Assembly (NCBI RefSeq): GCF_024628865.1
Contig: NZ_CP102384.1
Span: 3,917,001-3,981,000, forward strand
Reading direction: 5' to 3'
Source: Sphingopyxis sp. DBS4
GTDB taxonomy: Bacteria > Pseudomonadota > Alphaproteobacteria > Sphingomonadales > Sphingomonadaceae
DNA: 64,000 bases
A program made the position numbers and the translations under genes. Positions 1,267 through 17,662 of the stretch are shown in pieces. Below the pieces are notes generated by a model. The model was not told the DNA's origin, did no database searches, and was given only the letters and a program-made list of their open reading frames with translations. Every line of letters begins with the position of its first letter. Positions within the stretch are counted from its first letter, which is position 1.

Positions 1267-3267
1267 TCAAAGATCGAGGCCGAGCGCCTTTGCCACCCGT
1301 TCCCACGGCACCAGCTTGAAATTCTGATTCTCGGGCGGCGAGACGTTGCGGCCGTCCTGCGCGACCATCAGGCCGTGCGGGAAGTTCGGACCGGCCGCGA
1401 GGCTGCTGACGTCGAGGCCGTCGGTTTCGGAAACACCGTCGATCCCCGCCGCCATGTCGGCGCCGATGCGGAACGAGCCGACATAGGCGTTGTCGCCCTC
1501 GCGGCGGAAGACCGCATAGCTGTCGTTGCCCTGGCTCGAGACGACCAGATAGCCCTTGCCGCCCGCCATCGCATAGAGGCCCATCCCCTCCATATCGTCC
1601 TTGAGCGCCGGATTGTCGGTGATCTTCGCCAGCATCGTGCGCGCGGGACCGCCGCGCGGTTCGGCGCCCTCGCGCCAGATGCCGACATCTTCCTCGCCAG
1701 TATAGAGCATCCCCGTCTCATCATCGGCGACGCAGCCTTCGACCTGGCTCGCGAAGGGCAGGTCGCGCACCAGCTTCGCGCGCACTTTGCCCGCGGGGGT
1801 CGCGACCAGTTCCCACTGGCGCATCTTGCCGTCGGTCTGGTTGACGAAGACATAGGTCTTTTTCGTCTTCGCGCTGCGATACATGCACAGGCCATAGGGG
1901 TCTTCAAAGCCGGTATTCTGCAGCCCGTCCGCGACATCGGTCAGCCGGCGCGTCGCGGGGTCGAGCGCATAGATCGATATGCCCTTCGTCGTGCGGTTGC
2001 TTGCCGTCACCAGCGCGACATCGCGTCCGCCGAGACGGAAACCGCTGCGCAGGTCGACATTGTTCATGCGTCCGTCGGGCAGATATTGGAGCACCTTGCC
2101 GTCGAGGCCATAGACATAGAGCCCCGACTGTTTCTGCGTCCCGATCACCACGCTTTGCGCGGGGTCGGCGGGATTGATCCAGATCGCCGGATCGTCGGCG
2201 GCGTCCCCCCCGGTTTCGACCGGCGCGGTCTCGACCGTGGCGAGCGCCAGCGGCATCGTCGCGGGCGCCGGAGCGGCGGGCCGTTCGGGAAGCCCTGCCG
2301 CGGCGAGCAGCGCCGGCCAGCTCGCGATCTTGAAATTGGGCTGTTCGGGCGCATTGTCGTCGTCGGCGACGACCACGACCGGACCCGCGATCGTGATGCT
2401 GCCCGCGTCCTCGACCTTGTCGGCACCCGCCGCCAGCGTCACCGACCCCTGATAGGCATAGTCGTCGGTGGGGTCGTAGATGTTCAGGCGGTTCGCCTTG
2501 GCATCCGAAACGAGCAGCCGTCCATCGGCGGCGATGGCGACGCCCTTCGCTTCGTCGGTGATATGGCCGAGGCGGACGATGTCGACGATTTCCGGCTTGA
2601 TCTCGGCCTCGGGCTCGGCGGCGAAGCGCCAGACGCCGACGGCTTCCTGCGAGACATAGACCGCGCCGCGATCGTCGGCGGCGCAATAGCCGATTTCCGA
2701 TCCCAGCGACCAGCGCCGCGCGATGCGACCGCTCATCGCGCCCGAGGCGTCGGCGGCAAGCCCCCATTGCTCGATCTCGCCCTTGTCGCCGACGAGGAAG
2801 AGATAGAGGGTGCCGTCGCGATGGCTGCGCGAGAAACAGAGGCCCGCGACCGTCATATCGGGTTTGATTCCGGTCAGGCTCAGCGGGGTCGGAACGCCGC
2901 CGGCGCCGACGCGGAAAAGCTTGGGCGCGTTCGCCTTGCCGTCGAGCGCGGCAAGCAACGGCGCACCGCCCGGCGCGGCGTCGGCGCGAAGATCGAGCGC
3001 GCGGATATTGCCGACCTTGTGCGTCGCGACGCGCTGTCCCTTCAAATCGAAAACTTCGATTCCCGCCGATTCGGCGCCCGCGAGAATCAGCGTGCGCGAC
3101 GGATCGCCGGGATCGGCGATCACGGCGGCGCCATCGGCCCCCGACCCTTGCGTCGCCTGCGTTTCCGCCGATGCGGCGACGGCAGGGATCGCGGCGTCAT
3201 CGGGGGCCGCTGCGGCGGCGGGAACGGCCGTCAGCGCGGCGGCGATTGCAAACAGACTGGTTTTCAC
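1267..3267 (-). CDS. Secreted dual-domain beta-propeller phytase (3-phytase)
   Basis: The product is a predicted exported calcium-dependent beta-propeller phytase, which removes phosphates from phytate (inositol hexakisphosphate) outside the cytoplasm. The start is GTG with a strong upstream AGGGAGGG. Residues 1-21 form a signal peptide (MKTSLFAIAAAL...AAAA). At 666 aa it is about twice a single propeller: residues ~40-330 form a divergent first domain. Residues ~345-660 carry the hallmark DDPAIWINP, GTQKQSGLYVYGLDG, MNNVDLR and DDETGMLYTGEEDVGIW segments. Dual-domain phytases use the weak first propeller to extend the range of lower inositol phosphates. It is divergent from the phosphatase at 3382 and lies next to the inositol catabolism genes, which fits a phytate-scavenging role. 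Confidence 0.92.
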   Translation of the reverse strand: MKTSLFAIAAALTAVPAAAAAPDDAAIPAVAASAETQATQGSGADGAAVIADPGDPSRTLILAGAESAGIEVFDLKGQRVATHKVGNIRALDLRADAAPGGAPLLAALDGKANAPKLFRVGAGGVPTPLSLTGIKPDMTVAGLCFSRSHRDGTLYLFLVGDKGEIEQWGLAADASGAMSGRIARRWSLGSEIGYCAADDRGAVYVSQEAVGVWRFAAEPEAEIKPEIVDIVRLGHITDEAKGVAIAADGRLLVSDAKANRLNIYDPTDDYAYQGSVTLAAGADKVEDAGSITIAGPVVVVADDDNAPEQPNFKIASWPALLAAAGLPERPAAPAPATMPLALATVETAPVETGGDAADDPAIWINPADPAQSVVIGTQKQSGLYVYGLDGKVLQYLPDGRMNNVDLRSGFRLGGRDVALVTASNRTTKGISIYALDPATRRLTDVADGLQNTGFEDPYGLCMYRSAKTKKTYVFVNQTDGKMRQWELVATPAGKVRAKLVRDLPFASQVEGCVADDETGMLYTGEEDVGIWREGAEPRGGPARTMLAKITDNPALKDDMEGMGLYAMAGGKGYLVVSSQGNDSYAVFRREGDNAYVGSFRIGADMAAGIDGVSETDGLDVSSLAAGPNFPHGLMVAQDGRNVSPPENQNFKLVPWERVAKALGLDL

Positions 3268-3381
3268 TCAACCCTCCCTCATTCATCCGGAAAAGCGACG
3301 GCCGTCTGGATGTGATGGCCCGCTCTCAAATTCAGAATAATTTTTCTATCTTTCTTATAAAACAGAACGTATATTCATTCC
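3268..3381. promoter_or_regulatory. Divergent AT-rich promoter region (phytase / inositol monophosphatase)
   Basis: These 114 bp separate two divergent genes and contain the most AT-rich stretch nearby (about 3328-3380). A weak palindrome ACAGAA-CGTATA-TTCATT at 3362-3379 resembles the ATGGAA-N6-TTYCAT operator of the iol genes, with 4 of 6 bases matching in each half. I found no clear PhoB box. Confidence 0.45.
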
Positions 3382-4173
3382 ATGCCGATGTCATCCCTTA
3401 TTTCCGCCATGATCGCCGCCGCTCACGCCGCGGGCGAAGGATTGATCGCCGACCGCGAGCGCATCGCCACGCTGACGATCCACAGCAAGGCCGGCGCCGC
3501 CGACATGTTCACCGAGGCCGACCTCAAGGCCGAGGCGACCGTCCGCGAACACTTGATGGCCCATGCCCCCGACTATGGCTTCCTCGGCGAGGAAGGTGGA
3601 TTGACCCCCGGTCGCGACACCGACCATGTGTGGGTGGTCGATCCGCTGGACGGTACGACCAACTTCCTGACAGGATCCCCACTCTTCGCTGTGAATATTG
3701 CACTGGCGCGACAGGGTGAGGTGATTGCGGGCGTCACCTACGTTCCCGCAATGGCCGAGCTGTTCTGGGCCGAAACCGGCCGCGGCGCCTGGCTCGGTGA
3801 GCAGCGCATCCGGATTTCGCCGCGCTCGACGATCGAGGAGGCCGTGCTCGGGGTCGGTATTCCCTTTGCGACCAAGCCGGATCACGAACAATTTTACGCC
3901 GAGATGGAGCGGCTGACCCCGCGCGTCACTGGCATCCGCCGCCTTGGCGCGGGCGCGATCGACATGGCGTGGGTCGCCTGCGGCCGACACGACGCCTATT
4001 GGGAACAGAGCGTCAGCGCCTGGGACATGGCCGCAGGGGTTGCGATCGTCCGCGAGGCGGGCGGAATCGTCACCGACACGCTCGGCAACGCGCTTGACCT
4101 GATGAACGGCACGGTGCTGGCCTCAACGCCGGCGATCCACAAGGAACTGCTGACGGCGCTGACACGGGTTTAG
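3382..4173 (+). CDS. Inositol monophosphatase family protein (SuhB/HisN-like)
   Basis: The 263-aa protein has the complete metal site of the inositol monophosphatase family: GEEGG with Glu70/Glu71, WVVDPLDGTTNF with Asp87 and Asp90, and WDMAAG near residue 214. These enzymes hydrolyse inositol 1-phosphate, or histidinol phosphate in the HisN branch, in the cytoplasm with Mg2+. Being divergent from a phytase and beside an iol cluster with an organophosphate transporter, its likely task is the last dephosphorylation to free myo-inositol. The family alone does not prove the substrate. A second in-frame ATG lies at 3388, and no strong Shine-Dalgarno sequence precedes either start. Confidence 0.88.
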   Translation: MPMSSLISAMIAAAHAAGEGLIADRERIATLTIHSKAGAADMFTEADLKAEATVREHLMAHAPDYGFLGEEGGLTPGRDTDHVWVVDPLDGTTNFLTGSPLFAVNIALARQGEVIAGVTYVPAMAELFWAETGRGAWLGEQRIRISPRSTIEEAVLGVGIPFATKPDHEQFYAEMERLTPRVTGIRRLGAGAIDMAWVACGRHDAYWEQSVSAWDMAAGVAIVREAGGIVTDTLGNALDLMNGTVLASTPAIHKELLTALTRV

Positions 4174-4220
4174 GTTTGGAGGCGGCTTTGGGGTGGTGAG
4201 CGGACGATGCCCAACCACTC

Positions 4221-4300: not shown

Positions 4301-4341
4301 AGTTCGGTCGAAATCCGCCAATTCTCCGTTACGGCTTCCCC

Positions 4342-5457
4342 TTAGGGCTTCACCCACCCCCCCTCGCGATGCGACCGCCGGATCGCGTCGGCGACCTTCT
4401 CCACCGCCAGCGCATCGGCGAAGCTCTTTGCCGCCGACGGCAGTCCCGCCGCGGCCTCGACCGCGGCCTTGACCTCGATCGTCTTCAAATCATTGTAGCC
4501 GATCTGATGGCCCGATGCGGGGCAGAAGGCGCCATAGTCGCCATGCTCGGGCCCGGCGCAGATCGTCGTGAAGCCATTGGTGCGGCCCGGCCCGGAACGA
4601 TAGAGTTGCAGTTCGTTGAACTGCTCCTGCGTGAAGGCGATCGAGCCCTTCGTGCCGCTGACCTCGAACGCCAGCCCCATCTTGTGCCCGCTCGCGATCC
4701 AACTCGCCGCGAGAGTGCCGGTCGCGCCGCCGGCAAATTCGACGACCGCGTCCATCTGGTCGTCGACCGTCACCGCGCGGTCGGTGCCCGCTGCGTCGCG
4801 GCGCGTCGGGTAAGCGGTATGCAGCCGGCCCGACACCGACGCGATGTCGCCGATCAGATGCTGCGCCATCGCGATGATATGGCTGCCGATGTCGGCGAGC
4901 GCGCCGCCCGCTTGCTCGGGCTCGCAGCGCCAATTGAACGGCGCGTCGGCCGACGCCATGAAATCCTCGGCATGGATACCGCGAAAGGCGGTCACCTCGC
5001 CGATCTCGCCGCTGGCGATCAGGTCGCGCGCGAGGACGATCATCGGATTGTAGAGATAGGTGAAGCCGACTGCGGTCGGCCGCCCCGTTGCTGCGGCGGC
5101 CGCGGTCATCGCTTCGGACTCCGCAATCGTCGTCGCCAGCGGCTTTTCGCAATAGACCGCCTTGCCGGCCTGAAGCGCGGCGATCGCGATCGGGGCGTGG
5201 AGCAGGTTCGGGGTGGCGATCGCGACCATGTCGATCGATGCGTCGGCGATCGCCTCGCGCCAGTCGCCGCTTGCCTGCGGGATACCGAGCGAGGCAGCCG
5301 CAGCGGCCGCCGTCGGCAGATCGCGGTCGGCGAGGATCGTGACGCGCGGCGCACGCGGCAGGTCGAAGGTCCGGTCCGCCGCCGCGAAGGCGAGCGCATG
5401 GGCGCGGCCCATGAAGCCGCTGCCGATCAGCGCGATATGGAGGGGGGCGCCGCTCAT
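4342..5457 (-). CDS. Gfo/Idh/MocA family NAD(P)-dependent oxidoreductase (second inositol/sugar dehydrogenase)
   Basis: The 371-aa protein begins with a Rossmann fold (IALIGSGFMGRAHA), has the family motif YCEKPLA near residue 105 and the C-terminal substrate-binding domain with EDFMASADAPFNWR and DIGSHIIAMAQHL. Members oxidise inositols, amino sugars or sugars with NAD(P). It is the last gene of the run transporter-phoD-small HTH-oxidoreductase and overlaps the small gene by 4 bp, so translation is likely coupled. As a separate iolG exists at 16679, this enzyme may handle a stereoisomer (scyllo- or chiro-inositol) or a keto-inositol; that is inference. Confidence 0.85.
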   Translation of the reverse strand: MSGAPLHIALIGSGFMGRAHALAFAAADRTFDLPRAPRVTILADRDLPTAAAAAASLGIPQASGDWREAIADASIDMVAIATPNLLHAPIAIAALQAGKAVYCEKPLATTIAESEAMTAAAAATGRPTAVGFTYLYNPMIVLARDLIASGEIGEVTAFRGIHAEDFMASADAPFNWRCEPEQAGGALADIGSHIIAMAQHLIGDIASVSGRLHTAYPTRRDAAGTDRAVTVDDQMDAVVEFAGGATGTLAASWIASGHKMGLAFEVSGTKGSIAFTQEQFNELQLYRSGPGRTNGFTTICAGPEHGDYGAFCPASGHQIGYNDLKTIEVKAAVEAAAGLPSAAKSFADALAVEKVADAIRRSHREGGWVKP

Positions 5458-5660
5458 CCGCCCGCGACCTGATGAAAGCGTTCGCGCAGCCGCTCGATCG
5501 TCTTGCGCTTGACCGGCTGACCGTCGCGCAGCTTGTACCAGCTATTCTGGCTGATCCGATAGGTCTCGAACAGGCCTTCCCGCGTCGCGCACGGCAGATG
5601 CGCCTTCAGCGCCTCGAACTCGTCGCGCGCGATCGTCTCCATCTCGAAACGCATTCTCAT
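5454..5660 (-). CDS. Small HTH-like protein of unknown function
   Basis: A 68-aa basic protein joined to both neighbours by 4-bp ATGA overlaps, which supports it as a real, translationally coupled gene. Residues ~30-64 (YRISQNSWYKLRDGQPVKRK followed by TIERLRERF) look like a short helix-turn-helix: turn ISQN, recognition helix SWYKLR, and a trailing helix. Similar small proteins occur in alphaproteobacteria without an assigned function. In this position it could be a local regulator or an accessory of the phosphatase/transporter operon. I do not recognise a named family. Confidence 0.65.
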   Translation of the reverse strand: MRMRFEMETIARDEFEALKAHLPCATREGLFETYRISQNSWYKLRDGQPVKRKTIERLRERFHQVAGG

Positions 5661-7069
5661 TCACCTCCATAATAGCTGCCGCCGCGCTCCACGCGCTCGC
5701 GGCGTTCGAGTTCATGCGGGTCGATCGCTGCGCGCCAGCTCTGCTTGCCGTTGACGAGGTCTGCGGCGCGCAGGACGACGGGTTTGCCCGACGCCGAAGC
5801 CCCGATCACGTCGCGAATGCTCAATTCGACGCGCGGCTCGGGATCGAAGCTGAACTCGAGCAGGCCGAAATTGGCGCTCCGCACCCACGGCGCACGCAAT
5901 CGCACCTCGGGATGCTGATCGACGAATTTCGGCGCGAGATATTGGGCAAGGCCCGAACTCACCAGATCGTAGAAATCATAGCCGCCCTGCTCGGACCAGG
6001 GCACACAGTTGAGTTCGCCCTGATGCACGTCGCCCGAAATACCGAGGCAACCGCCAATCCTTTCGTCGCGGATAAAATCGAGGATCTCGTTCCGCTCGTG
6101 GAGGTAGGCGGCCCAGCTATCGCCGTCCTTTTCGGCGAGCGTCCAGCCGGTGCCCGACGCGAGGATCTTGAACGCCGCCTTCGATGCCTTGAGTTCGCGT
6201 TTCAGCCACGCCTTTTGTCCCGCGCCGAGCATCGTCTTGGCCGGACTGTCGGGGTCCGACGGCGGGTCGCGATGGTAGCGCCCGTCGAGCATGAAGATAT
6301 CGACGGGGCCGAAGCTGTGGCGAAAGAAGATGCCCGGCGTATCGGGCAGCCCCGACGCCGGATTCGCCCACCAGCGGTCGAACAGGCGGCGCGTCATCGC
6401 CTTCGCGCCGTTGCGGCGGTCCGAATCATTATAGCCGAAATCATGATCGTCCCAGATCGCGAGTTGCGGCACCGAACGGAGCAGCGGGACGAGCGCCGGC
6501 ACATTGCGCTGGCGCGAATAGAGCGCCGAAAAGGCGGTCTCGCTGTCGCTGTCGGCGTAGATATTGTCACCGAGCCACAGGAAGAGGTCGGGCTCCATCG
6601 CCGCGACCGCTTCGAACACCGGTTGCTCGGGGTAGAGCTGGACGCGCGCGCACGAGCCGAAGGCGATGCGGATCGGGCGCGGGCGGTCGGGCGCGGTGCG
6701 GGTGCGGAAAGCGAGCGGCTGGTGCCGGTCGTCGATTCCGTCGGTCTTGATGCGGTAATAATAGTCGGTGTCGGGCCGAAGCCCTTTCACTTCGATCGCG
6801 GTGCAGAGATCATTCTCCTGCGTCGCGGCGACCGGCGCGGTCGTCTTCGCATCGGCGAAATCGCGGCGTGTCGCATATTCGACCGCGACCCCGAAGGCGC
6901 CGCTCGCGCGCGACCAGACGGAGAAGCTCTCCGGCGTCGTCGCACCCACCATCGGGCCATCGAGCAGCCGCGGATAGCCGATCGCGGCGGCATAAAGCCG
7001 GCGCGGCAACGCAGCGAGAAAGGCAAGCGCGGCGCCCCCGCGCAGAAGATTGCGGCGATGCATCGTCAT
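5657..7069 (-). CDS. phoD: PhoD-like alkaline phosphatase/phosphodiesterase, Tat-exported
   Basis: The 470-aa protein starts with a twin-arginine signal (HRRNLLRGGAALAFLAAL), so it is exported folded to the periplasm. It follows the PhoD order: N-terminal fibronectin-like part, then FGSCAR, WLGDNIYAD, IWDDHDFGYND, LDGRYHR and SGDVH, which supply the metal ligands. PhoD enzymes hydrolyse phosphomonoesters and diesters with Ca2+ and Fe3+. It begins 5 bp after the OPA transporter gene, so the two are probably co-transcribed. In this setting it may trim inositol phosphates or glycerophosphoinositol before uptake. Substrate is inferred from context only. A second ATG lies two codons downstream. 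Confidence 0.88.
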   Translation of the reverse strand: MTMHRRNLLRGGAALAFLAALPRRLYAAAIGYPRLLDGPMVGATTPESFSVWSRASGAFGVAVEYATRRDFADAKTTAPVAATQENDLCTAIEVKGLRPDTDYYYRIKTDGIDDRHQPLAFRTRTAPDRPRPIRIAFGSCARVQLYPEQPVFEAVAAMEPDLFLWLGDNIYADSDSETAFSALYSRQRNVPALVPLLRSVPQLAIWDDHDFGYNDSDRRNGAKAMTRRLFDRWWANPASGLPDTPGIFFRHSFGPVDIFMLDGRYHRDPPSDPDSPAKTMLGAGQKAWLKRELKASKAAFKILASGTGWTLAEKDGDSWAAYLHERNEILDFIRDERIGGCLGISGDVHQGELNCVPWSEQGGYDFYDLVSSGLAQYLAPKFVDQHPEVRLRAPWVRSANFGLLEFSFDPEPRVELSIRDVIGASASGKPVVLRAADLVNGKQSWRAAIDPHELERRERVERGGSYYGGE

Positions 7070-7074
7070 GTCCT

Positions 7075-8409
7075 TCAGTCGCGCAGCTTCGTGTTCCAGA
7101 GCGTCGTGGCGAGGATCGTCGCCAGCACCGAACTGCCGATCCAGAACCAGATCACCGGCCCGAAATCATAGACGTTCGCGCCGTTCGCCATATGCATGTT
7201 GGCGTCGATCAGCGCCCCCGACACCTGTTCCTGGATCGCGGCACCGAGATAGGAGAAGACGCCGACGAGGCCGAGCGCGGCGCCCGCGACGCGCTTCGGA
7301 CAGATATCGATCGCGAACAGCCCGCCGAGCGAGGTGACAAGGCCGGTCATGCCGAGCCCGAACAGGATCACCGCGACCAGAACGACGGCCGGATTGTTCG
7401 GGCCGAAGAAGAGCAGCAGCAGCCCGACAAGCTCGACGACGCCGAACAGCAGATTGGCTGGCGGACGCCGCGCGCCGAAGAATTTATCGGAAACGAAGCC
7501 AAAGGCGACCGCCCCCGCGACCCCCGCGAGCGTACTCGCGGTGAGCACCGCGCCCGCTTCCGCCAGCGAATAGCCCCGCGCTTCCTGGAGATAAAGGATG
7601 CCCCAGCTGTTGATCGCGTAGCGCGTCACATAGTTGGCGGCGCTTGCCAGCGCGAGAATCCAGACCGCCGGGATTTTGAGGATCGAAAGCTGGGTCGCGA
7701 ACACCCCGCGCTCGGGCGCGCCTTCGGCGGGCGGGGCATAATGATCGTTCCGCCAGTCGGCGACGGTCGGCAGGCCCAGCGCGCGCGGACGGTCGGCCAT
7801 CGCGTAAAAGGCGGCGATCCCCGCAAGAATCGCCGCGACGCCCGGCCCCCAGAAGCCCCAGCGCCAGCCGCCGAACGCGACGAGCGCCGAGACGGCGGCG
7901 AAGGTCAGCCCCTCGCCGATCGAATGCGCAGTTGACCAGATGCCGTAATAGCGCCCGCGCTCGCGGTTCGAGAACCAGCTCGCCAGCGCGACGACGCAGG
8001 CGGGCGCGCCATAGCTCTGGAACCAGCCGTTGAGGCCCCAGATCAGCAGCGTCGCCCAGAAGAGCGTCGAGAAGCCCATCGCAATATTGCACAGCGCCGA
8101 CAGGATCATCCCCGCCGCGAACAGCCGCTTCACATTGCTGTGATCGGCGACGAAGCCGTTGATCAGTTTGCCCGCGGCATAGGTGTAGAAGAGCGCCGAG
8201 CCGATCATCCCGAGTTCGAGCGGCGTGAAGATGCCCTGATCGATCAGCGGTTTCTTGACGATGTTGATCGCGAGCCGACAGGTATAGCTGACGGCGTAGG
8301 CGAGCGTGATCGCCATGATGATCCGCATCCGATAGCTCTTGAAAGCGCCATCGACGCCGTCGTCGGTCCTGACCGGCAGGTCCGGCCCCGTCGCGAAATA
8401 TCTGAGCAT
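7075..8409 (-). CDS. OPA-family (GlpT/UhpT/UhpC-like) organophosphate:phosphate antiporter, candidate inositol-phosphate importer
   Basis: The 444-aa polytopic inner-membrane protein has the twelve-helix MFS layout. It carries the OPA signature: SYTCRLAINIVKKPL with Arg45 in helix 1, and NYVTRYAINSWGILYL with Arg263 in helix 7. These match the phosphate-binding Arg45 and Arg269 of GlpT. I chose ATG 8409, preceded by GGAGAG, over a TTG 20 codons upstream. It has its own iol-type operator at 8474-8491 and leads the phoD-HTH-oxidoreductase group. The window has no classic inositol permease (IolT or an ABC system), so import of an inositol phosphate is a plausible role. UhpC-like sensing is the alternative. 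Confidence 0.82.
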   Translation of the reverse strand: MLRYFATGPDLPVRTDDGVDGAFKSYRMRIIMAITLAYAVSYTCRLAINIVKKPLIDQGIFTPLELGMIGSALFYTYAAGKLINGFVADHSNVKRLFAAGMILSALCNIAMGFSTLFWATLLIWGLNGWFQSYGAPACVVALASWFSNRERGRYYGIWSTAHSIGEGLTFAAVSALVAFGGWRWGFWGPGVAAILAGIAAFYAMADRPRALGLPTVADWRNDHYAPPAEGAPERGVFATQLSILKIPAVWILALASAANYVTRYAINSWGILYLQEARGYSLAEAGAVLTASTLAGVAGAVAFGFVSDKFFGARRPPANLLFGVVELVGLLLLFFGPNNPAVVLVAVILFGLGMTGLVTSLGGLFAIDICPKRVAGAALGLVGVFSYLGAAIQEQVSGALIDANMHMANGANVYDFGPVIWFWIGSSVLATILATTLWNTKLRD

Positions 8410-8473
8410 CGCCTCTCTCCCTCGCCGGCCATTGCCAGTCCTCTGTTGCGAGACTATTTCATTATTCAATAAA

Positions 8474-8491
8474 ATGGAAGATTTGTTTCAT
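8474..8491. promoter_or_regulatory. Putative iol regulon operator (transporter promoter)
   Basis: ATGGAA-GATTTG-TTTCAT matches the palindromic consensus ATGGAA-N6-TTYCAT seen best at 16618-16635. It lies 65 bp upstream of the chosen transporter start. Confidence 0.6.
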
Positions 8492-8500
8492 ATCTATGAA

Positions 8501-8608: not shown

Positions 8609-10102
8609 CTATGACGTCGGAATAAGGAACGCATTGTCGCCGGCGCCGCCATCGGGCCAGCGCTGGGTCACTGTCTTGACCTTGGTCCAGAAGCGCACGC
8701 CTTCCATTCCATATTGGTTGGTATCGCCGAACCCCGAGCGCTTCCAGCCGCCGAAGCTGTGATAGGCGACGGGCACCGGGATCGGCACGTTGATGCCGAC
8801 CATGCCGACGTTGACGCGCTGCGCGAATTCGCGCGCGGCGTGGCCGTTGCGCGTGAAGATCGCGACGCCATTGCCGTACTGATGATCGCTCGGCAGGCGC
8901 AGCGCCGTTTCGAAATCGGGGGCGCGGACGATCTGCAGCACCGGGCCGAAAATTTCCTCGCGATAGGCGCGCATGTCGGTCGTCACCCGGTCGAACAAAG
9001 TCGGGCCGACGAAGAAGCCCTGCTCATGCCCTTGCAGCACCAGCCCGCGGCCATCGACGACCAGCTCGGCGCCCTCGTCGACCCCGGCCTGGATCCATTG
9101 CTCGATGCGCGCCTTGTGCGCGGCGTTGACGACCGGGCCGTAATGCGCGTCGGGATCGCTCGACACCCCGACCTTGAGCGCGGCGATCGCCGGGATCAGC
9201 CGTTCGCGCAGCGCATCGGCGGTCTTGTCGCCCACCGGCACCACGACCGGCAGCGCCATGCAGCGCTCGCCCGCCGAACCGAAAGCGGCGCCGCAAAGGT
9301 CGCTGACGACCTGGTCGAGGTCGGCGTCGGGCATGACGATGCCGTGGTTCTTCGCGCCGCCCATCGCCTGCACGCGCTTCCCCGCTGCGGTGCCGCGCCC
9401 ATAGACATAGTGCGCGATATCCGACGAGCCGACGAAGCTGACCGCCGCGATCGCCGGATGGTCGAGGATCGCGTCGACCATCTCCTTGTCGCCATGGACG
9501 ACTTGCAGGATCCCCTCGGGCAGCCCCGCCTCGCGCATCAGCTCGGCGAGGCGCACCGGCACCGACGGATCGCGCTCGCTGGGCTTGAGGATGAAGGCGT
9601 TGCCCGCCGCGATCGCGGGGCCGAACATCCACATCGGGATCATCGCGGGAAAATTGAACGGGGTGATGCCCGCGACGACGCCGAGCGCCTGCCGCATGGC
9701 ATAGACGTCGATTCCCGGCCCCGCGCCCTGCGTATATTCGCCCTTCAGCGCGTGCGGGATGCCGCACGAAAATTCGATGACTTCCAGCCCGCGCAGGATG
9801 TCGCCCCTTGCGTCGGCGACGACCTTGCCATGCTCGCTCGCGAGCAGCTCGGCGAGGTCCTGCATGTTCGCCTCGAGCAGTTCGCGGAAGCGGAACAACA
9901 CGCGCGAACGGCGCTGCGGATTGGTCGCCGCCCAGCCGGGCTGCGCGGCCGCTGCCGTCGCGACGGCGCGATCGAGATCGGCAGGGGTCGAAAAGGCGAC
10001 GCGCGCCTGAACCTGCCCCGTGCTCGGGTTGAAAACCTCGCCCGCACGCACGGAACCGCCGCCGGCGGCGTCGCCGGCGATGAAGGGGTCAATCTGTCTC
10101 AT
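8609..10102 (-). CDS. mmsA: CoA-acylating methylmalonate-semialdehyde dehydrogenase
   Basis: A 497-aa aldehyde dehydrogenase of the MMSDH/IolA group, with FVGSSDIAHYVY, GAKNHGIVMPDADLDQ and the catalytic cysteine in GERCMA (Cys281). In inositol breakdown it converts malonate semialdehyde to acetyl-CoA and CO2 with NAD+ and CoA; the same enzyme serves valine degradation. A good ribosome site (GGAAGAG) precedes the ATG. It is the last gene of iolC-iolD-iolE-iolB-mmsA, 9 bp after iolB, which supports the inositol role. The alternative symbol is iolA. Confidence 0.94.
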   Translation of the reverse strand: MRQIDPFIAGDAAGGGSVRAGEVFNPSTGQVQARVAFSTPADLDRAVATAAAAQPGWAATNPQRRSRVLFRFRELLEANMQDLAELLASEHGKVVADARGDILRGLEVIEFSCGIPHALKGEYTQGAGPGIDVYAMRQALGVVAGITPFNFPAMIPMWMFGPAIAAGNAFILKPSERDPSVPVRLAELMREAGLPEGILQVVHGDKEMVDAILDHPAIAAVSFVGSSDIAHYVYGRGTAAGKRVQAMGGAKNHGIVMPDADLDQVVSDLCGAAFGSAGERCMALPVVVPVGDKTADALRERLIPAIAALKVGVSSDPDAHYGPVVNAAHKARIEQWIQAGVDEGAELVVDGRGLVLQGHEQGFFVGPTLFDRVTTDMRAYREEIFGPVLQIVRAPDFETALRLPSDHQYGNGVAIFTRNGHAAREFAQRVNVGMVGINVPIPVPVAYHSFGGWKRSGFGDTNQYGMEGVRFWTKVKTVTQRWPDGGAGDNAFLIPTS

Positions 10103-10111: not shown

Positions 10112-10903
10112 TTACTGGCGCACGATCCACTCGTGCGCGGGGTCGTTGCGGAACACCCAGTTGCGCCGGGGTCCCGCCATCACGTTCAGATAATAAAGAT
10201 CATATCCGTGCGGCGCGCCGACCGGATGATAACCGCGCGGCACCATCACGACGTCGCCGTCCTCGACCGCCATCGTCTCGTCGATGTCGCGTTCGTCGGT
10301 ATAGACGCGCTGGAAGGCGAAGCCCTGCGGCGGCGACAGGCGGTGGTAATAGGTTTCCTCGAGGAAGGTCTCCTCGGGAAAGGCGTCGCGGTCGTGCTTG
10401 TGCGGCGGATAGCTCGACCAGTGGCCGCCGGGCGTGATCACCTCGACGACGAGCAGGCTTTCGGCCTCATCGGCATCGGACAGGATGTTGCGGACGTGGC
10501 GCGTGTTGGTGCCCTGCCCGCGCACCTCGACCGCGTCGGAGCGGATCAACCGCACCGCGCCGGCGCCGGTTCCCGGCGCGGTGCAGATCGCAACTTCGGC
10601 ATCGGACGCCGCCCCTATCGTATAGCGATGACCGGCGGGGACATAGACCGAGGTCGCGGCGCCATCGAACACCGTCTCGCGCCCGCCGATATCGCCGAAA
10701 TGCTCGCCGCCCGCATCGACCGACACCGTTCCGGTCAGGATCACGAGACACGCCTCGCGCCCGTCCTCGACATGATTGTAACGCGCACCCGCGGCCAGCC
10801 GGACAACGCGGAAACCGACATATGTCCAGCCCGCGCTTTCGGGCGTGATGTCGAGCAGCGTGCCATCGTCGTCGGGGGCGTGCGGGCGGACGAGCAGCGA
10901 CAT
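10112..10903 (-). CDS. iolB: 5-deoxy-glucuronate isomerase
   Basis: The 263-aa bicupin contains the conserved SSYPPHKHD metal site near residue 165, then EETYYHRLSPPQGFAFQRVY and VPRGYHPVGAPHGYDLYYLN. IolB converts 5-deoxy-D-glucuronate to 2-deoxy-5-keto-gluconate in the cytoplasm. Its start overlaps the end of iolE by one base. Confidence 0.95.
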   Translation of the reverse strand: MSLLVRPHAPDDDGTLLDITPESAGWTYVGFRVVRLAAGARYNHVEDGREACLVILTGTVSVDAGGEHFGDIGGRETVFDGAATSVYVPAGHRYTIGAASDAEVAICTAPGTGAGAVRLIRSDAVEVRGQGTNTRHVRNILSDADEAESLLVVEVITPGGHWSSYPPHKHDRDAFPEETFLEETYYHRLSPPQGFAFQRVYTDERDIDETMAVEDGDVVMVPRGYHPVGAPHGYDLYYLNVMAGPRRNWVFRNDPAHEWIVRQ

Positions 10904-11796
10904 CAGACCAGCGCCTCCTCGCGCGCGAGCCGCTTCAGCGTGTCGAGGCCGAGCTGGCTGTATTCGCGCGGATTGGCAATCGCCGGGTCCTGTTCGGCCT
11001 CGATCACGATCCAGCCCGAATAATCCATGTCGGCGAGCGCGCGCATGAAGGGCGCATAATCATAGTCGCCGTCGCCGGGCGCGGTGAACATGCCGCCGAC
11101 GACGCCATTGAGGAAGCTCGTCCCATTCGCGAGAAATTCGTCATATTTCGCGGTCCGCACATCCTTGCAATGGACGTGGGCGACGCGCTCGGGGCGCGCC
11201 TTGATCACGTCGATCGGCTCGATCCCGCCGAACAGCGCGTGGCCCGTGTCGAGCACCAGCCCGACATGATCGCCGGTCGCATCGAAGAAGCGCTCGAGCT
11301 CGTCCTTCGTCTCGACGAGGGTGCCGAGATGATGGTGATAGGCGAAACGCAGTCCGCGATCGGTGATGAAGCGCGCGACGGTGTTCAACCGCTCGCCGAA
11401 CTGCTTCCAGTCGGCGGCGGGCAGCACCGGATGCGTGTCGAGCCGGCTGCCATAGCGGTCACCGTGGACCGCGTTCGACGTCTCGGCGAGGATGAAGACG
11501 CTCGAATCCATATATTCGAGCAGCGCGAGATGCTTCGCCAGCGCCGCAATCTCGGCATCGGCGTCGCGCACCAGAAGATTCGACGAATACCAGCCGCTGA
11601 CGATGTCGAGGCCATAGCTCGACATGATCGGCGCGAGCGTTTCGGGATCGCGCGGGAATTTATTGCCCAGCTCGACCCCGTCGAAGCCGATGTCGCGAAC
11701 ATCGGTTAGCAGTTCGTCGAGCGTCGTATCACCGCCCAGTTCGCGCATGTCGTCGTTGCACCAGGCGATCGGGCTCACGCCCCAGCGGATCGTCAT
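10903..11796 (-). CDS. iolE: Inosose (2-keto-myo-inositol) dehydratase
   Basis: The 297-aa TIM-barrel protein of the xylose-isomerase-like superfamily shows RFAYHHHLGT, LVLDTGHALFGG, HVHCKDVR and WIVIEAEQDP, the metal ligands of IolE. It dehydrates 2-keto-myo-inositol, the product of IolG, to the substrate of IolD. It overlaps iolD by 4 bp (ATGA), so translation is likely coupled. Length is normal. Confidence 0.95.
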   Translation of the reverse strand: MTIRWGVSPIAWCNDDMRELGGDTTLDELLTDVRDIGFDGVELGNKFPRDPETLAPIMSSYGLDIVSGWYSSNLLVRDADAEIAALAKHLALLEYMDSSVFILAETSNAVHGDRYGSRLDTHPVLPAADWKQFGERLNTVARFITDRGLRFAYHHHLGTLVETKDELERFFDATGDHVGLVLDTGHALFGGIEPIDVIKARPERVAHVHCKDVRTAKYDEFLANGTSFLNGVVGGMFTAPGDGDYDYAPFMRALADMDYSGWIVIEAEQDPAIANPREYSQLGLDTLKRLAREEALV

Positions 11797-13628
11797 TGCC
11801 TCTCTCCGTCAATTCGATGTTCATAGTCGCGCCGCGCGGCCTGCACTTCGGCCCGCGTCGACACTTCGGGTACGGCGACGTCCCACCAATGGCCGCCCGC
11901 CTCGGTGGTGATCGCGGGATCGGTGTCGATGACGATCACGTAGCTTTTGGCCGACGCCTTGGCGCGGCCGAGCGCGGCGTCGAGGTCTGCGAGGCCGCCG
12001 ACCTTCTCGGCCCCCGCACCGAGGCTACGGGCATGGGCCGCGAAATCGATCTCAGGCAGCACGGCATGCGCCGCGTCGGCGAGCAGATTGTTGAACGGAC
12101 GCCCGCCCGTTCCCTGCTGCAGCCGGTTGATGCAGCCGTAGCCGCGGTTGTCGAGCAGCACGACTATGATCTTGTGCCCGAGCATCACCGAGGTTGCGAG
12201 TTCGGAGTTGAGCATCAGATAACTGCCGTCGCCGACCATCACGATGACGTCGCGCGCCGGGTCGGCCATCTTGACCCCAAGTCCGCCTGCGACCTCGTAA
12301 CCCATGCACGAAAAGCCATATTCGACATGATAGCCGCCCGGGCGGTGGCTCCGCCAAAGCTTGTGGAGTTCGCCGGGCAGCCCGCCCGCGGCGCACACAA
12401 CAGTGGCGTCCTCGCCCGCCTGCCGCCACACCGCGCCGATCACCTGCGCGTCGGAGGGCAGCGCGGTACCGGGCGTGGTCGCGGCGTCCCATGCGGCGTT
12501 CCATTCAGCAACTGCAGCGCGGTTCGCGTCGCCCCATGCCGCCTCGACCCGCCAATCGGCGAGCGCTTCGGTCAGGGCTTCGAGCGTTTCGCGCGCATCG
12601 CCGACGACCGCTTCGGCGCCCTGCTTGATCGCGTCGGGCACGGCGATGTTGACCTGGATCAGCCGCTTGCCCGCGAAGAGCGTACGCGATCCGGTGGTAA
12701 AATCCTGCAGCCGGGTACCGACGCCGATAATCAGGTCGGCGGCCTCGGCCGCGGCATTCGCCGCACTCGTCCCGGTGACGCCGATGCTGCCGAGCGCCTG
12801 GCGGTGATCCCACGCCAGCGCACCCTTCCCCGCCTGCGTCTCGGCGACCGGGATGCCGGTCTGCGCCGCGAGGTCGGCCAGCACCGCCTCAGCCCCGGAA
12901 TAAAGCACGCCGCCGCCCGCGACGATCAGCGGCGCCTTTGCGGTGCGGACCGCTTCGACGAGACGGTCAAATTCCGCGCGGTCTGCGCGCGAACGGCGCT
13001 GACGCCAAAGGCGCGGAGCAAAGAAGCTCTCGGGATAGTCATAAGCCTCGGCCTGCACGTCCTGACAAAGCGCCAGCGTCACCGGCCCGCACAGCGCCGG
13101 ATCGGTCAGCACACCCATCGCGCGCGGCAGCGCATCGATGATCTGTTCGGGCCGCGTGATACGGTCGAAATAGCGCGAGACCGGGCGGAAGCAGTCGTTT
13201 GCGCTGACCGTCGCGTCAGCAAAATCCTCGATCTGCTGGAGCACGGGATCGGGACGGCGACTGGCATAGACGTCACCGGGCAGGAACAGCACGGGCAGCC
13301 GGTTGACGTGCGCGAGTGCCGCCGCGGTCACCATGTTGGTCGCGCCGGGGCCGATCGAGGTCGTGCACGCCATCGCGCGGCGACGACGGCTCGCCTTGGC
13401 AAAGGCGATCGCCGCGTGCGCCATCCCCTGTTCGTTATGCGCGCGATACGTCGGAAGCGTGTCTTCCATCCCGGCGAGCGCTTCGCCCATCCCCGCGACA
13501 TTACCATGGCCGAAGATCGCCCACATGCCCGCGAAATAGGGCAGTTCGACGCCATCGATCTCGACCCGCTGCGCCGCGAGCCAGCGCGACAGCGCCTGCG
13601 CCATCGTTAATCTGACAGTCCTGCTCAT
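11793..13628 (-). CDS. iolD: 3D-(3,5/4)-trihydroxycyclohexane-1,2-dione acylhydrolase
   Basis: A 611-aa thiamine-diphosphate enzyme with the usual three domains. An N-terminal Pyr domain contains GHGNVAGMGEAL and MACTTSIGPGATNMVTAAA. The central domain follows, and a C-terminal PP domain has VMVGDGSYLMLNSELATSV and LLDNRGYGCINRLQ. It opens the ring of the IolE product to 5-deoxy-glucuronate. It overlaps iolC upstream and iolE downstream by 4 bp each. Identification is firm. Confidence 0.95.
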   Translation of the reverse strand: MSRTVRLTMAQALSRWLAAQRVEIDGVELPYFAGMWAIFGHGNVAGMGEALAGMEDTLPTYRAHNEQGMAHAAIAFAKASRRRRAMACTTSIGPGATNMVTAAALAHVNRLPVLFLPGDVYASRRPDPVLQQIEDFADATVSANDCFRPVSRYFDRITRPEQIIDALPRAMGVLTDPALCGPVTLALCQDVQAEAYDYPESFFAPRLWRQRRSRADRAEFDRLVEAVRTAKAPLIVAGGGVLYSGAEAVLADLAAQTGIPVAETQAGKGALAWDHRQALGSIGVTGTSAANAAAEAADLIIGVGTRLQDFTTGSRTLFAGKRLIQVNIAVPDAIKQGAEAVVGDARETLEALTEALADWRVEAAWGDANRAAVAEWNAAWDAATTPGTALPSDAQVIGAVWRQAGEDATVVCAAGGLPGELHKLWRSHRPGGYHVEYGFSCMGYEVAGGLGVKMADPARDVIVMVGDGSYLMLNSELATSVMLGHKIIVVLLDNRGYGCINRLQQGTGGRPFNNLLADAAHAVLPEIDFAAHARSLGAGAEKVGGLADLDAALGRAKASAKSYVIVIDTDPAITTEAGGHWWDVAVPEVSTRAEVQAARRDYEHRIDGERQ

Positions 13629-15580
13629 GCCGCCACCTTAGCACGGCGCGCCGCGCGCCAGCCATCGGCAAGAACACGCAGATTGGCGCCGAGCGCGGCA
13701 ATCGCCGCCTCGTCGTCGATCGCGCCGGTCAGCCATTGCTGCGCGACGTCGTGGAAGATCGTCCGGCCGACCGCGAAGCCCTTGACCAGCGGAAAGGCGG
13801 CGGCGGCGACGATGCCCGCGAGCACTTCGTCCTGCGGCGCCGACAGGCCGAGCAGAACAATGCCGCGGCACAGCGGATCGTGGCGCAGGATCGCGGCCTC
13901 GCTCGCGGCCCAGGCGGCGGCATCGGTCGTCGGTTCGAGCTTCCACCAGTCGGGATAGATGCCGAGCGAATAGATATGGTCGATCACCGAGGCGATCGTG
14001 CCGCTGTCGACCGGCCCATGTTTCGAGGCGATGATTTCGAGCAGAAATTCGTGACGCGTGCGGCGACACGCGTCGAACAGCCGCGCTATCTGCCGGTCCT
14101 GCCGCGCGCGCATCTCGGCATCATCGTCCGGATGATAGAAGACGAGGCATTTGACGACATGGTTGGTCGGCCAGTCGCGCAGCGTCATGCCGACATCGGG
14201 CGAACCTTCGAAGCGCAGCGGACGCGACCCCGGCACCTCGATCGGCCGCCCGATCCAATAGGGATGATCGGCCGCCGCCTCGAGCGCGCGCGCACCGAAG
14301 CGCCCATCGAGCAGCACGCCGTAATTGGGATCGCCCGCGCCCATGCGGTGCAGCGCCTCGAGCGCCAGATTCTTGAAATGATGGACCCGCGCCTCGTCGC
14401 TTTCGCCGAGTTCGGCGAGCAGATCGTCGAACTGGCTGCGGTGATCGATCGCAAGGACCGTCAGTTCATCGCGCTCGCCGTGGCGGTTGGTCGACCAGTG
14501 GAGCTGTTCGAGCTCGGCACTTTCACGCAAGCGGTGCGGCCATTCGCGGCTGAGGAAATGCTGCAATTCGTCCCACGACGCCATTGCCGGGGCGCAGCCG
14601 TGCCGCGACACGACGAGCGCACCGCACGCATTGGCGATCTCGCAGCATTTTTCGAGCGGCATGTCCTTCAGCCAGCCGCGCAGGAAGCCGGCCATGAAAG
14701 CGTCGCCCGCACCGAGCACGTTGAACACCTCGATCGGAAAGCCGCGGCCGACGACCCCGGCGTCGAGCGATGCGGGGATATCGCCGGGAAAGGCTATGCA
14801 GCCGTCAGCGCCGCGCTTGCAGACGAGCAGCGCCGCACTCTTCGCGCGGATCGCACGGAGCGCGGCGAGCGTGTCGGTCGAGCCGCCAAGGATATGAATC
14901 TCCTCCTCGGTGCCGACGATCAGGTCGCAGAGCGGCAGTACGCGCTGGAGCGCTTCGGTCACGCCGCTATCCGCGACGAAGCGGTCCTCGCCATTGTCCT
15001 TGCCCGCGAGCCCCCACAGCACCGGCCGGTAATCGATGTCGAAAACGACGCGACCGCCGGCCGCCTTCATCAGCGTCGCCGCCTTGAGGCTCGCCGCGAA
15101 CACGCCCGGTTGCGACAGGTGCGTGCCGTTGATCAGCAGCGCGCCGGCCGAAGCGATGAAATCGGGGTCGATATCGTCGGCGGCCAGCGCCATGTCGGCG
15201 CAATTCTCACGGTAGAAGATCAGCGGAAAGGTATCGGGATCGCGGATACCGAGGAAAACGAGCGCGGTCAGCCGGTCGGGGTCGGAGCGGACGCCGCGCG
15301 TCGACACCCCTTCGCGTTCGAGCTCCTCGACGATGAAGCGACCGAAATGATCGGCGCCGACACGCGTGATCAGCCCGGCGCGCAGGCCGAGGCGCGCGGC
15401 GCCGACCGCGGTGTTGGTCGGGCTGCCGCCGATATATTTGGCAAAGCTCGCCATATCCTCGAGCCGCCCGCCAATCTGTTCGCCGTATAGGTCGATCCCC
15501 GCGCGCCCCAGCGTGACGACATCCAGCCGGCCCTCTCCGCCCCGTTCCTGCCCTTGTTGCGTCATCGCTTTCGAGACCAT
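13625..15580 (-). CDS. iolC: 5-dehydro-2-deoxygluconokinase fused to a DUF2090 domain (possible kinase-aldolase)
   Basis: The 651-aa protein is a fusion. Residues ~18-335 form a PfkB-type kinase (DVVTLGRAGIDLYGEQ, YIGGSPTNTAVGAARLGL, catalytic NVLGAGDAFMAGFLRGW), which phosphorylates 2-deoxy-5-keto-gluconate. Residues ~340-640 form the DUF2090 domain with DHRSQFDDLL, HHFKNLALEAL and HEFLLEIIASKHG, which resembles a class-I-aldolase TIM barrel. No separate iolJ aldolase lies in the window, so the second domain may do the aldol cleavage to DHAP and malonate semialdehyde (inference). AAGGAAGG directly abuts the ATG at 15580; another ATG lies at 15565. It leads the iolCDEB-mmsA operon. Confidence 0.93.
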   Translation of the reverse strand: MVSKAMTQQGQERGGEGRLDVVTLGRAGIDLYGEQIGGRLEDMASFAKYIGGSPTNTAVGAARLGLRAGLITRVGADHFGRFIVEELEREGVSTRGVRSDPDRLTALVFLGIRDPDTFPLIFYRENCADMALAADDIDPDFIASAGALLINGTHLSQPGVFAASLKAATLMKAAGGRVVFDIDYRPVLWGLAGKDNGEDRFVADSGVTEALQRVLPLCDLIVGTEEEIHILGGSTDTLAALRAIRAKSAALLVCKRGADGCIAFPGDIPASLDAGVVGRGFPIEVFNVLGAGDAFMAGFLRGWLKDMPLEKCCEIANACGALVVSRHGCAPAMASWDELQHFLSREWPHRLRESAELEQLHWSTNRHGERDELTVLAIDHRSQFDDLLAELGESDEARVHHFKNLALEALHRMGAGDPNYGVLLDGRFGARALEAAADHPYWIGRPIEVPGSRPLRFEGSPDVGMTLRDWPTNHVVKCLVFYHPDDDAEMRARQDRQIARLFDACRRTRHEFLLEIIASKHGPVDSGTIASVIDHIYSLGIYPDWWKLEPTTDAAAWAASEAAILRHDPLCRGIVLLGLSAPQDEVLAGIVAAAAFPLVKGFAVGRTIFHDVAQQWLTGAIDDEAAIAALGANLRVLADGWRAARRAKVAA

Positions 15581-15620
15581 CCTTCCTTGGTCTGAAACGC
15601 TTATTCCACTTTTAGAATGT

Positions 15621-15638
15621 TTGCAACATATGTTTCAT
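15621..15638. promoter_or_regulatory. Putative iol regulon operator (iolC promoter)
   Basis: TTGCAA-CATATG-TTTCAT fits the consensus ATGGAA-N6-TTYCAT with one imperfect half. It lies 41 bp upstream of the iolC start, inside the 79-bp gap between the regulator gene and iolC. Confidence 0.5.
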
Positions 15639-15659
15639 GTTGGGGTGGCAATGAAATAG

Positions 15660-16538: not shown

Positions 16539-16559
16539 TCTCCCCCGTTGGTCGGAAAA

Positions 16560-16664
16560 ACGGAATATCTGTTCAAAACTTGTAACGCAACTGTCGCCCT
16601 GCGGCTTGTTCGAAGCTATGGAATATATGTTCCATATGATATAGATATGGAACATGGTTTCAAC
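16560..16664. promoter_or_regulatory. Divergent iolG / regulator promoter with three operator-like palindromes
   Basis: A perfect palindrome ATGGAA-TATATG-TTCCAT lies at 16618-16635. Partial copies are ACGGAA-TATCTG-TTCAAA at 16560-16577 and ATGGAA-CATGGT-TTCAAC at 16647-16664. In addition TTCCATAT and ATATGGAA form an inverted pair around GATATAG. The last site ends 14 bp before the iolG start, where a repressor would block transcription or initiation. Confidence 0.65.
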
Positions 16665-16678
16665 CGGAAGAGGATAAT

Positions 16679-17662
16679 ATGCACGACATCGCCCTGATCG
16701 GCGCCGGCAGGATCGGCAAAATCCATGCGGCGAACCTCGCCGCCAACCCGCGCCTGCGGCTGACGCGGGTCGTCGATCCCTTTCCCGAGGCGGCGGCGGA
16801 GATTGCGGCCCAATATGGCGCACAGGTTTCGACGATCGAGGACGCCCTCGCTGATCCGACCATCGCCGGCGTCGTCGTCGCCAGTTCGACCGACACCCAT
16901 CTGCCCTACAGCCTCGCGGCCGCGGAGGCCGGCAAGGCGATCTTCTGCGAAAAGCCGCTCGATCAGGATCTGACCGCCGCGCGCGATTCGGCGGCGCGGT
17001 TCGCGGCGCTCAAAGCGCGGCTCTTCCTCGCCTTCAATCGCCGCTTCGACCCGAATTTCGCGGCCCTGCAGGCGCGGCTGGCGGACGGCGCGGTCGGCGC
17101 GCTCGAAACGCTGCACATCATCAGCCACGATCCCGCACCACCGCCGGTCGATTATGTCAAAGTGTCGGGCGGCATCTTCAAGGACATGGTGATCCACGAT
17201 TTCGACATGGCGCGCTGGCTGCTCGGCGAAGAGGTGACCGAGGTCTTCGCCAGCGCCTCGGTGCTCGTTGACCCTGCGATCGGCGAGGCGGGTGATGCCG
17301 ATACCGCGAAGACGATCCTGCGCACCGCATCGGGCCGCCTCTGCGTGATCTCGTCGAGCCGCCGCAGCGGCTATGGCTACGACCAGCGGATCGAGGCGTT
17401 CGGATCGAAAGGCATGATCCGCGCGCAGAACCAGCTCGAAACGACGGTCGAGACGTGGGGCGAGAAGGGCGCCGCCGCCGATCGCTTCCAGAATTTCTTC
17501 CTCGATCGCTATGCCGTTGCCTACGCCCGCGAGGCCGAGCATTTCGCCGACATTCTGGACGGCGCCGCGCCGCTCGTCGATTTTCGCGATGGCGTCGCGG
17601 CGCTGGCGCTGGCCGAGGCGGCGGCGCAGTCGGCACAGACGGGCGAGCGGGTGCTGCTCTAG
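16679..17662 (+). CDS. iolG: myo-inositol 2-dehydrogenase
   Basis: The 327-aa Gfo/Idh/MocA protein carries the IolG pattern: Rossmann motif IALIGAGRIGKIHAANL, FCEKPLD with Lys92, FNRRFDPNF, and the diagnostic SGGIFKDMVIHDFDMARW block with catalytic Asp and His. It oxidises myo-inositol to 2-keto-myo-inositol with NAD+. The ATG follows GGAAGAGG. It is divergent from the RpiR regulator across several operator-like palindromes and stands apart from the minus-strand iol operon. The TAG stop coincides with the first bases of a dispersed repeat. Confidence 0.93.
   Translation: MHDIALIGAGRIGKIHAANLAANPRLRLTRVVDPFPEAAAEIAAQYGAQVSTIEDALADPTIAGVVVASSTDTHLPYSLAAAEAGKAIFCEKPLDQDLTAARDSAARFAALKARLFLAFNRRFDPNFAALQARLADGAVGALETLHIISHDPAPPPVDYVKVSGGIFKDMVIHDFDMARWLLGEEVTEVFASASVLVDPAIGEAGDADTAKTILRTASGRLCVISSSRRSGYGYDQRIEAFGSKGMIRAQNQLETTVETWGEKGAAADRFQNFFLDRYAVAYAREAEHFADILDGAAPLVDFRDGVAALALAEAAAQSAQTGERVLL

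Follow-up and report, generated by a model that had tools for sequence, protein, structure and literature searches.

Is phytate broken down for its phosphate, or for the carbon of its inositol ring? It is a major store of organic phosphorus in soil, and the phytases of bacteria are generally taken for phosphorus genes. The question was raised by a locus of Sphingopyxis sp. DBS4, at positions 1267 to 17,662 of the stretch analysed here (the window: 64,000 nucleotides of contig NZ_CP102384.1, part of a 4.9 Mb genome), in which a secreted beta-propeller phytase gene is grouped with the iol genes of inositol catabolism. An earlier reading of the letters alone (the sequence-only reading) had proposed that the carbon of phytate, not just its phosphate, was the goal. 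The locus is probably half of an inositol-phosphate utilisation system, in which phytate would be trimmed outside the cell, imported as inositol (mono)phosphate, then dephosphorylated and oxidised inside, all under the control of an IolR-type regulator.

Family profiles and curated cut-offs confirmed every gene named by the sequence-only reading, which had overlooked two features, the RpiR/SIS-type regulator and the fusion of an aldolase domain to IolC. The gene set is as follows.

1267-3267, minus strand: two-domain, secreted beta-propeller phytase (PF02333, 2e-128; Sec-type signal peptide by eye; orthologs in five other sphingomonads)
3382-4173, plus strand: inositol monophosphatase (IMPase) family protein (PF00459; matches SuhB/IMPase structures; catalytic motifs kept)
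4342-5457, minus strand: second Gfo/Idh/MocA dehydrogenase (best NCBIfam match levoglucosan dehydrogenase, 280 bits, far below the cut-off of 650)
5657-7069, minus strand: PhoD-like phosphatase (PF09423/PF16655; Tat-type N terminus by eye, with the N-termini of 11 orthologs)
7075-8469, start probably ~8409, minus strand: organophosphate:phosphate antiporter (OPA)-type transporter of the major facilitator superfamily (MFS) (PF07690; GlpT structure, 4e-50)
8609-10102, minus strand: mmsA/iolA, CoA-acylating malonate/methylmalonate semialdehyde dehydrogenase (over the TIGR01722 cut-off)
10112-10903, minus strand: iolB (over the TIGR04378 cut-off)
10903-11796, minus strand: iolE (over the TIGR04379 cut-off)
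11793-13628, minus strand: iolD (over the TIGR04377 cut-off)
13625-15580, minus strand: iolC kinase fused to a DUF2090 aldolase domain (over the TIGR04382 and NF047869 cut-offs; PF09863)
15660 to ~16538, minus strand: RpiR/SIS-type regulator, IolR candidate (PF01418, PF01380; start inferred from relatives, longest open reading frame (ORF) to 16823)
16679-17662, plus strand: iolG, inositol 2-dehydrogenase (over the TIGR04380 cut-off)

Dihydroxyacetone phosphate and acetyl-CoA are the products that the iol pathway makes from myo-inositol, and this route is complete here, because IolG, IolE, IolD, IolB, IolC and MmsA all pass curated NCBIfam cut-offs; the PF09863 domain of the IolC fusion supplies the aldolase. 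The regulator adjoins the iol genes, and GGAA-N6-TTCC-type sites occur at the iol promoters, as in an IolR regulon. The phytase, whose closest named relatives are from Sphingopyxis (95% identity to a protein of a Sphingopyxis metagenome-assembled genome, MAG), carries PF02333 and has active-site motifs in at least one domain; 3amr and 1poo both aligned to the C-terminal one. Alignment to solved 3-phytases (PDB) was confined to that domain (residues 343-663), and the N-terminal domain was without motifs such as GDAADDPAIW. The enzyme thus has two domains and is secreted, as had been read, but probably only the C-terminal domain is catalytic, the other being degenerate. The IMPase has PF00459 and the metal-site motifs, did not reach the NCBIfam equivalog cut-offs, and forms part of the iol operon in some relatives; none of 20 IMPase N-termini showed a signal peptide by eye, and the protein is predicted to be cytosolic. 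The second dehydrogenase is possibly for another inositol stereoisomer.

Sphingomonad genomes were surveyed for the phytase-iol synteny by a profile search of 249 Sphingomonadaceae genomes for PF02333 and, at its curated cut-off, iolB. PF02333 was matched in 109 genomes and iolB in nine. Two PF02333 matches in one frame occurred in six genomes, all of them among the nine with iolB (hypergeometric, 2.7e-10), a count that may be low because some other phytase frames are long (587-740 aa) and have one PF02333 match only. In the five two-domain genomes with both genes on one contig, phytase and iolB were 6.6-15.7 kb apart; in the sixth, G067, a contig break intervenes, the iol contig ending in mmsA and the phytase contig starting with the phosphatase. 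Adjacency thus extends beyond the one genome from which it had been described. No phytase match was found in three iolB-positive genomes (G075, G141, G182). Conversely, iolB passed its cut-off in none of the 103 genomes with a single-match phytase, and such phytases were rejected as part of the sphingomonad system; outside the family, the linked phytase of Caulobacter Root343 is a one-domain enzyme. Among 14 control genomes, Bacillus subtilis and Caulobacter vibrioides matched both families, a comparison of presence only and not of linkage.

The pairing recurs well beyond the sphingomonads. A collection of 84,980 species (genome_contigs) yielded at least 343 phytase relatives, from which the best 80 loci were kept with flanks of up to 10 kb a side. 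Seventeen of these 80 carried iolB, C, D or E in their flanks, and came from Sphingopyxis, Sphingomonas, Caulobacter, Luteimonas, Pseudoxanthomonas, Povalibacter, Woeseiaceae, Parvularculaceae and unclassified MAGs. In L024, L048 and L051 mmsA or the MFS group stood at the flank edge, and L049 has a weak IolD-like match (25%) that was left out of the iol count. Another 32 of the 80, mainly from Pseudomonas and other Gammaproteobacteria, had a receptor like TBDR8 (a TonB receptor described below) and no iol gene in the flanks. The sequence-only reading held that such phytases usually stand next to TonB receptors or alone, not with iol genes; this describes the Pseudomonas-type relatives well, but its second half is too strong.

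Fifty of the 80 best-match genomes were hand-picked and 49 searched, a sample biased to good phytase matches. IolD passed its cut-off in 26 of the 49, and phytase and iolD lay on one contig within 30 kb in 20. With G249 and G251, which are broken by contig ends but have matching neighbours, the linked set numbers 22; G257, G282, G295 and G296, with phytase and iolD on different contigs, were counted in the unlinked set of 27. Linkage recurred with differing gene orders, and phytase, MFS transporter, IMPase, iol genes and regulator were found together in six sphingomonads, in one of them across a contig break, and also in other genera; a chance cluster was rejected on this account. The recurrence of the linkage in two proteobacterial classes supports carbon as the goal. 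IolD and the MFS transporter of Luteimonas are 70-72% and 63-65% identical to those of the window, and those of some Sphingomonadaceae 69-71% and 63-65%; we infer that the module was transferred between classes. Congeners carry the locus at other positions. Its neighbour in the window, recJ, lay ~270 kb from iolD in G251, and in G250 and G252 recJ and the locus were on separate contigs. In G042, which is without iolB, recJ and a glutamine cyclotransferase gene, the locus flanks in the window, were ~594 kb apart. Sphingopyxis panaciterrulae has two phytase copies, one linked and one unlinked. The environmental strains Sphingopyxis flava R11H and Sphingomonas horti MAH-20 have the locus as well.

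A second line of evidence came from the promoters. The IolR operator of Caulobacter is described as GGAA-N6-TTCC in the part of the source consulted (PMC2597717). Strict matching to this pattern gave one match in the window, no more than chance for 64 kb; only a position-weighted, promoter-restricted test with controls was informative, and a mismatch-based motif scan ranked a different place in the phytase promoter first. A symmetric 14-base position weight matrix (PWM) was built from 43 sites of iolC, iolG and iolR promoters plus two published ones, and 32 hand-selected sources were scanned at a threshold score of 8. Sites at or above it were found in 16/19 phytase, 8/11 MFS, 4/5 AppA-like phytase, 3/3 IMPase and 10/14 TBDR8 promoters (the L056 site being also a training site), in 5/9 second dehydrogenase, 1/3 mmsA and 0/1 PhoD promoters, and in 21/156 controls; these classes are not independent, because divergent genes share regions. 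The area under the curve was 0.876 for the real model, while 300 column-permuted models reached at most 0.824 (mean 0.622). The sites in the window are listed here.

3364-3377, minus-strand reading TGAATATACGTTCT: candidate IolR-type operator in the phytase/IMPase intergenic region (3268-3381), the promoter that these divergent genes share (PWM 13.7, shuffle p 0.007)
8476-8489: candidate IolR-type operator preceding the MFS gene (PWM 11.7, p 0.012)
15594-15607: IolR-type site before iolC (used in training)
16562-16662: three IolR-type sites between iolR and iolG, at 16562, 16620 (GGAATATATGTTCC) and 16649 (used in training)

Among phytase promoters, sites with a shuffle p below 0.02 were present in 18 of 24 iol-linked cases against 4 of 58 others (Fisher, 1.1e-9), and scores of at least 8 in 21/24 against 11/58; one of the 59 non-linked loci, L096, was left out because of its short upstream stretch. 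Of the four positive non-linked loci, L034 has iol genes 28 kb away and L037, L040 and L055 are contigs of less than 10 kb. By this pattern the phytase here looks like a carbon gene, and the candidate sites at phytase, transporter, receptor and second-phytase promoters agree with what had been proposed for the locus. Three two-domain sphingomonad phytases away from iol genes (L025, L026, L028) are without an IolR-type site (scores 0.2-1.4).

The second half of the system stands apart from the first, and only a part of its TBDR8 gene falls inside the window.

63347-64000, straddling the window end, minus strand: 3' part of TonB receptor TBDR8 (45% identity to the TBDR8 of a relative)

In the window's genome TBDR8, a kinase, a response regulator, an AppA-like histidine acid phosphatase gene and a second receptor, TBDR7, are grouped at C1:3980347-3988794, ~45 kb from iolG; IolR-type sites precede the AppA-like gene and TBDR8 (L102). 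In all five related sphingomonads TBDR8, the two-component system and the AppA-like gene are in the locus itself, as is TBDR7 (none was seen in G067); three of these genomes also showed PhoD, and two the second dehydrogenase. The system is divided in this genome and in one place in its relatives. The sequence-only reading saw a single locus that could lead from phytate to central metabolism, and this stands for the phytase and iol genes, but not for the receptors, the two-component system and the AppA-like phytase. The AppA-like protein is a relative rather than an equivalog of AppA, because it scored 208 bits against the NF007552 cut-off of 585, yet its L014 ortholog matches AppA-type phytase structures at ~1e-48 to 1e-52. 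A phage-type integrase gene (L102, 12431-13768) follows this group, near its AppA-like phytase and TBDR7 genes, and perhaps marks an island border. In G067 (L007, 4728-9667) the TBDR8 gene appears to be in two pieces around an ORF that seems by eye to encode an IS30-type transposase.

How the inositol enters the cell may turn on the MFS transporter, which was matched (E <= 1e-60) in 20 of the 22 linked and none of the 27 other chosen genomes (Fisher, 8e-12). In the Sphingomonadaceae survey, matches above 800 bits were limited to seven of the 249 genomes, the six with the locus and G204, the next best reaching 145 bits. The protein is far below the NCBIfam cut-offs for OPA members (GlpT, TIGR00712, 232 against 632.55 bits; UhpC, 261 against 564) and is not assigned to GlpT; its homology to GlpT and SLC37 and its paired arginines place it in the OPA superfamily. 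It shares fold family, by sequence, and phosphate-site residues with the GlpT, UhpT, PgtP and SLC37 antiporters, from which it also differs in its linkage to iol and phytase genes. R65, R283, H182 and K101 were invariant in 27/27 aligned orthologs; R65 and R283 are presumably the counterparts of the phosphate-binding arginine pair of GlpT. Directly after the first arginine, all 27 have Leu where GlpT has a Lys that we take to be Lys46 in number and role. An AlphaFold model from six sequences had a mean predicted local distance difference test (pLDDT) value of 60.5 and was not used.

The IMPase gene lay 2-97 bp downstream of the MFS gene on the same strand in seven of ten measurable loci (Caulobacter, Luteimonas, Pseudoxanthomonas), and in L004 and L005 it lay 4-5 bp after mmsA. 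A natural contrast is provided by Caulobacter sp. Root655, where a binding protein stands beside iolG (best PDB match 4irx, 535 bits, which we take to be the Caulobacter inositol-binding protein), the phytase is on another contig, and the iol contig from 1 to 48 kb holds no MFS, IMPase or phytase gene. In the window's genome the best PF13407 match (90 bits) appeared by eye to be LacI-type and had no similarity to the Root655 binding protein, and PF00083 was not matched at 1e-30; SSS-type and other inositol importers were not searched. A PF13407 protein of Povalibacter was rejected as IbpA-like, as it had no similarity to the IbpA-like protein. Entry of inositol as a phosphate is proposed because of this lack of an IbpA-like protein or PF00083 match, the distribution of the transporter, its adjacency to the IMPase, and the contrast with Root655. 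AppA-type enzymes stop at inositol 2-phosphate and propeller phytases at inositol trisphosphate (InsP3), and these end products fit phosphorylated import. There is about an even chance that bacteria have, in the iol-linked OPA clade, an antiporter dedicated to exchanging inositol phosphate for phosphate, through which phosphorylated inositol is eaten as carbon, and that this clade belongs to a transferable phytate locus of Alpha- and Gammaproteobacteria under an inositol repressor and not the phosphate regulon.

In the route suggested by these families, a TonB receptor would bring phytate or its breakdown products across the outer membrane, and in the periplasm the secreted propeller phytase, the distant AppA-like phytase and perhaps PhoD would strip phosphates. 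The GlpT-like antiporter would then bring in an incompletely dephosphorylated product (most likely inositol monophosphate) against phosphate moving out, and the cytosolic monophosphatase would free myo-inositol, which IolG, E, D, B, the IolC-aldolase and MmsA would convert to dihydroxyacetone phosphate and acetyl-CoA. The RpiR-type IolR would repress the iol, phytase, transporter and receptor genes jointly until an inositol signal arrives.

Several observations weigh against this route. Two linked loci, G259 and G284, both MAGs, are without the transporter, and G204 has it without a phytase match, iolB over cut-off or any other locus gene within 20 kb. In the window, L007 and L051 the IMPase and MFS genes are read from opposite strands. 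Caulobacter Root343 (G281) has both the transporter and a binding protein 90% identical to that of Root655, so the swap of one for the other is not strict. None of seven TBDR7 and two response regulator promoters had an IolR-type site, and a PHO-like box was present in 4/14 linked TBDR8 promoters, that of the window's genome included, against 6/156 controls. As to G204, its transporter ortholog (L103, 9695-11062; 69% identical) adjoins a lipoxygenase gene.

Some of these exceptions would be expected if phytate were fully dephosphorylated outside and free myo-inositol entered by another carrier, with the MFS protein moving a different organophosphate or phosphate, in what would still be an IolR-controlled carbon locus. 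PhoD and the AppA-like enzyme could complete the removal of phosphate, G259 and G284 manage without the transporter, and Root343 has an IbpA-like protein beside it. We consider this possible but rather unlikely, given how closely the transporter tracks linkage and that the window's genome showed neither an IbpA-like protein nor the PF00083 match; moreover, a cytosolic IMPase next to the transporter in seven loci would be idle.

Import of an inositol phosphate as a carbon source was also weighed against phosphate scavenging by phytases that merely happen to be near iol genes, carbon use being incidental. Promoters were scored against what we take to be the PHO-box consensus, those with at least 11 of its 14 bases being called PHO-box-like. 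Such boxes were found in 17/32 non-linked receptor promoters against 7/128 random windows, and together with the boxes at linked TBDR8 promoters they speak for scavenging. A TonB receptor-phytase pair of Flavobacterium is induced by low phosphate, according to the portion of that report consulted (PMC8115612). However, linked phytase promoters were PHO-box-like in only 3/24 cases, the window's not among them (non-linked, 6/58), and mostly carry IolR-type sites, which scored at least 8 in only 2/32 non-linked receptor promoters; the linkage, too, recurs under different gene orders. Scavenging as the whole explanation is thus improbable, and a purely PHO-controlled locus was rejected because PHO-like boxes were rare at the promoters of linked phytases, even if some receptors have them. 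Those at some receptor promoters make phosphate a possible second purpose, and the receptor may answer to both inositol and phosphate signals. Enzymes of one kind thus seem to answer to phosphate starvation in some bacteria and to inositol in others. Sphingomonas and Caulobacter were dominant on phytate-baited beads in soil, where phytate was the phosphorus source, as far as the consulted part of that study describes (PMC5017799); this fits the ecology of the locus but bears on phosphorus and not on carbon use.

Degradation of phosphatidylinositol or glycerophosphoinositol, with PhoD (whose family includes phosphodiesterases) as the phosphodiesterase and GlpT-like uptake of the glycerol phosphate part, would suit the resemblance of the transporter to GlpT, but is very improbable, as PhoD was not seen in L004, L007 and the Caulobacter loci L137 and L138 while phytase-type enzymes stay, and all 27 transporter orthologs have Leu at the presumed Lys46 position.

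The layout of an inositol-phosphate utilisation locus is analogous, and only analogous, to that of polysaccharide utilisation loci, in which a receptor, a carrier, secreted enzymes, catabolic genes and a regulator are grouped; the substrate here is a polyphosphate. Among known systems, the myo-inositol module of Caulobacter crescentus (iolR, idhA, iolCDEBA and ibpA-iatA-iatP; Boutte et al. 2008, PMC2597717), as far as the consulted portion goes, has the same catabolic set, an adjoining RpiR-type IolR and GGAA-N6-TTCC operators. It differs in taking up free inositol by an ATP-binding cassette (ABC) system encoded ~500 kb away (PMC2597717), in whose place the window locus has the OPA-type MFS transporter, IMPase and phytases. 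The only mention of phytase in the consulted text is one entry of the reference list. The TonB receptor-phytase pairs (Pseudomonas-type loci, and Fjoh_1367/1368 of Flavobacterium in the part of PMC8115612 consulted) likewise combine a propeller phytase with a TonB receptor, but have no iol genes in view, their receptor promoters are often PHO-like with few IolR-type sites, and none of the non-linked genomes searched had the OPA-type transporter.

What is new here is the combination of known enzyme families, together with its apparent regulator and the transporter clade. The open-licence PubMed Central (PMC) literature searched described no phytase-iol linkage and no bacterial inositol phosphate carrier, which is not proof of absence from print. 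If the locus is under an inositol repressor, phytate turnover becomes a carbon question as well, and mineralisation could run while phosphate is plentiful. An uncharacterised transporter clade also gains a concrete candidate substrate, with a genome that has an ABC-type binding protein in its place as the natural contrast.

Other genes of the window lie between the two halves. Beside the TonB receptor, at 54850-63080, a LuxR-like helix-turn-helix/alpha-beta hydrolase protein, an extracytoplasmic function (ECF) sigma factor, a Ser/Thr protein kinase and an autotransporter are encoded in a row. A two-partner secretion (TPS) pair at 45661-54448 comprises, besides a ShlB-type transporter, a long TPS-domain protein that has a GLUG motif and MBG repeats, and a 525-aa TIR-domain protein is encoded at 39417-40994.

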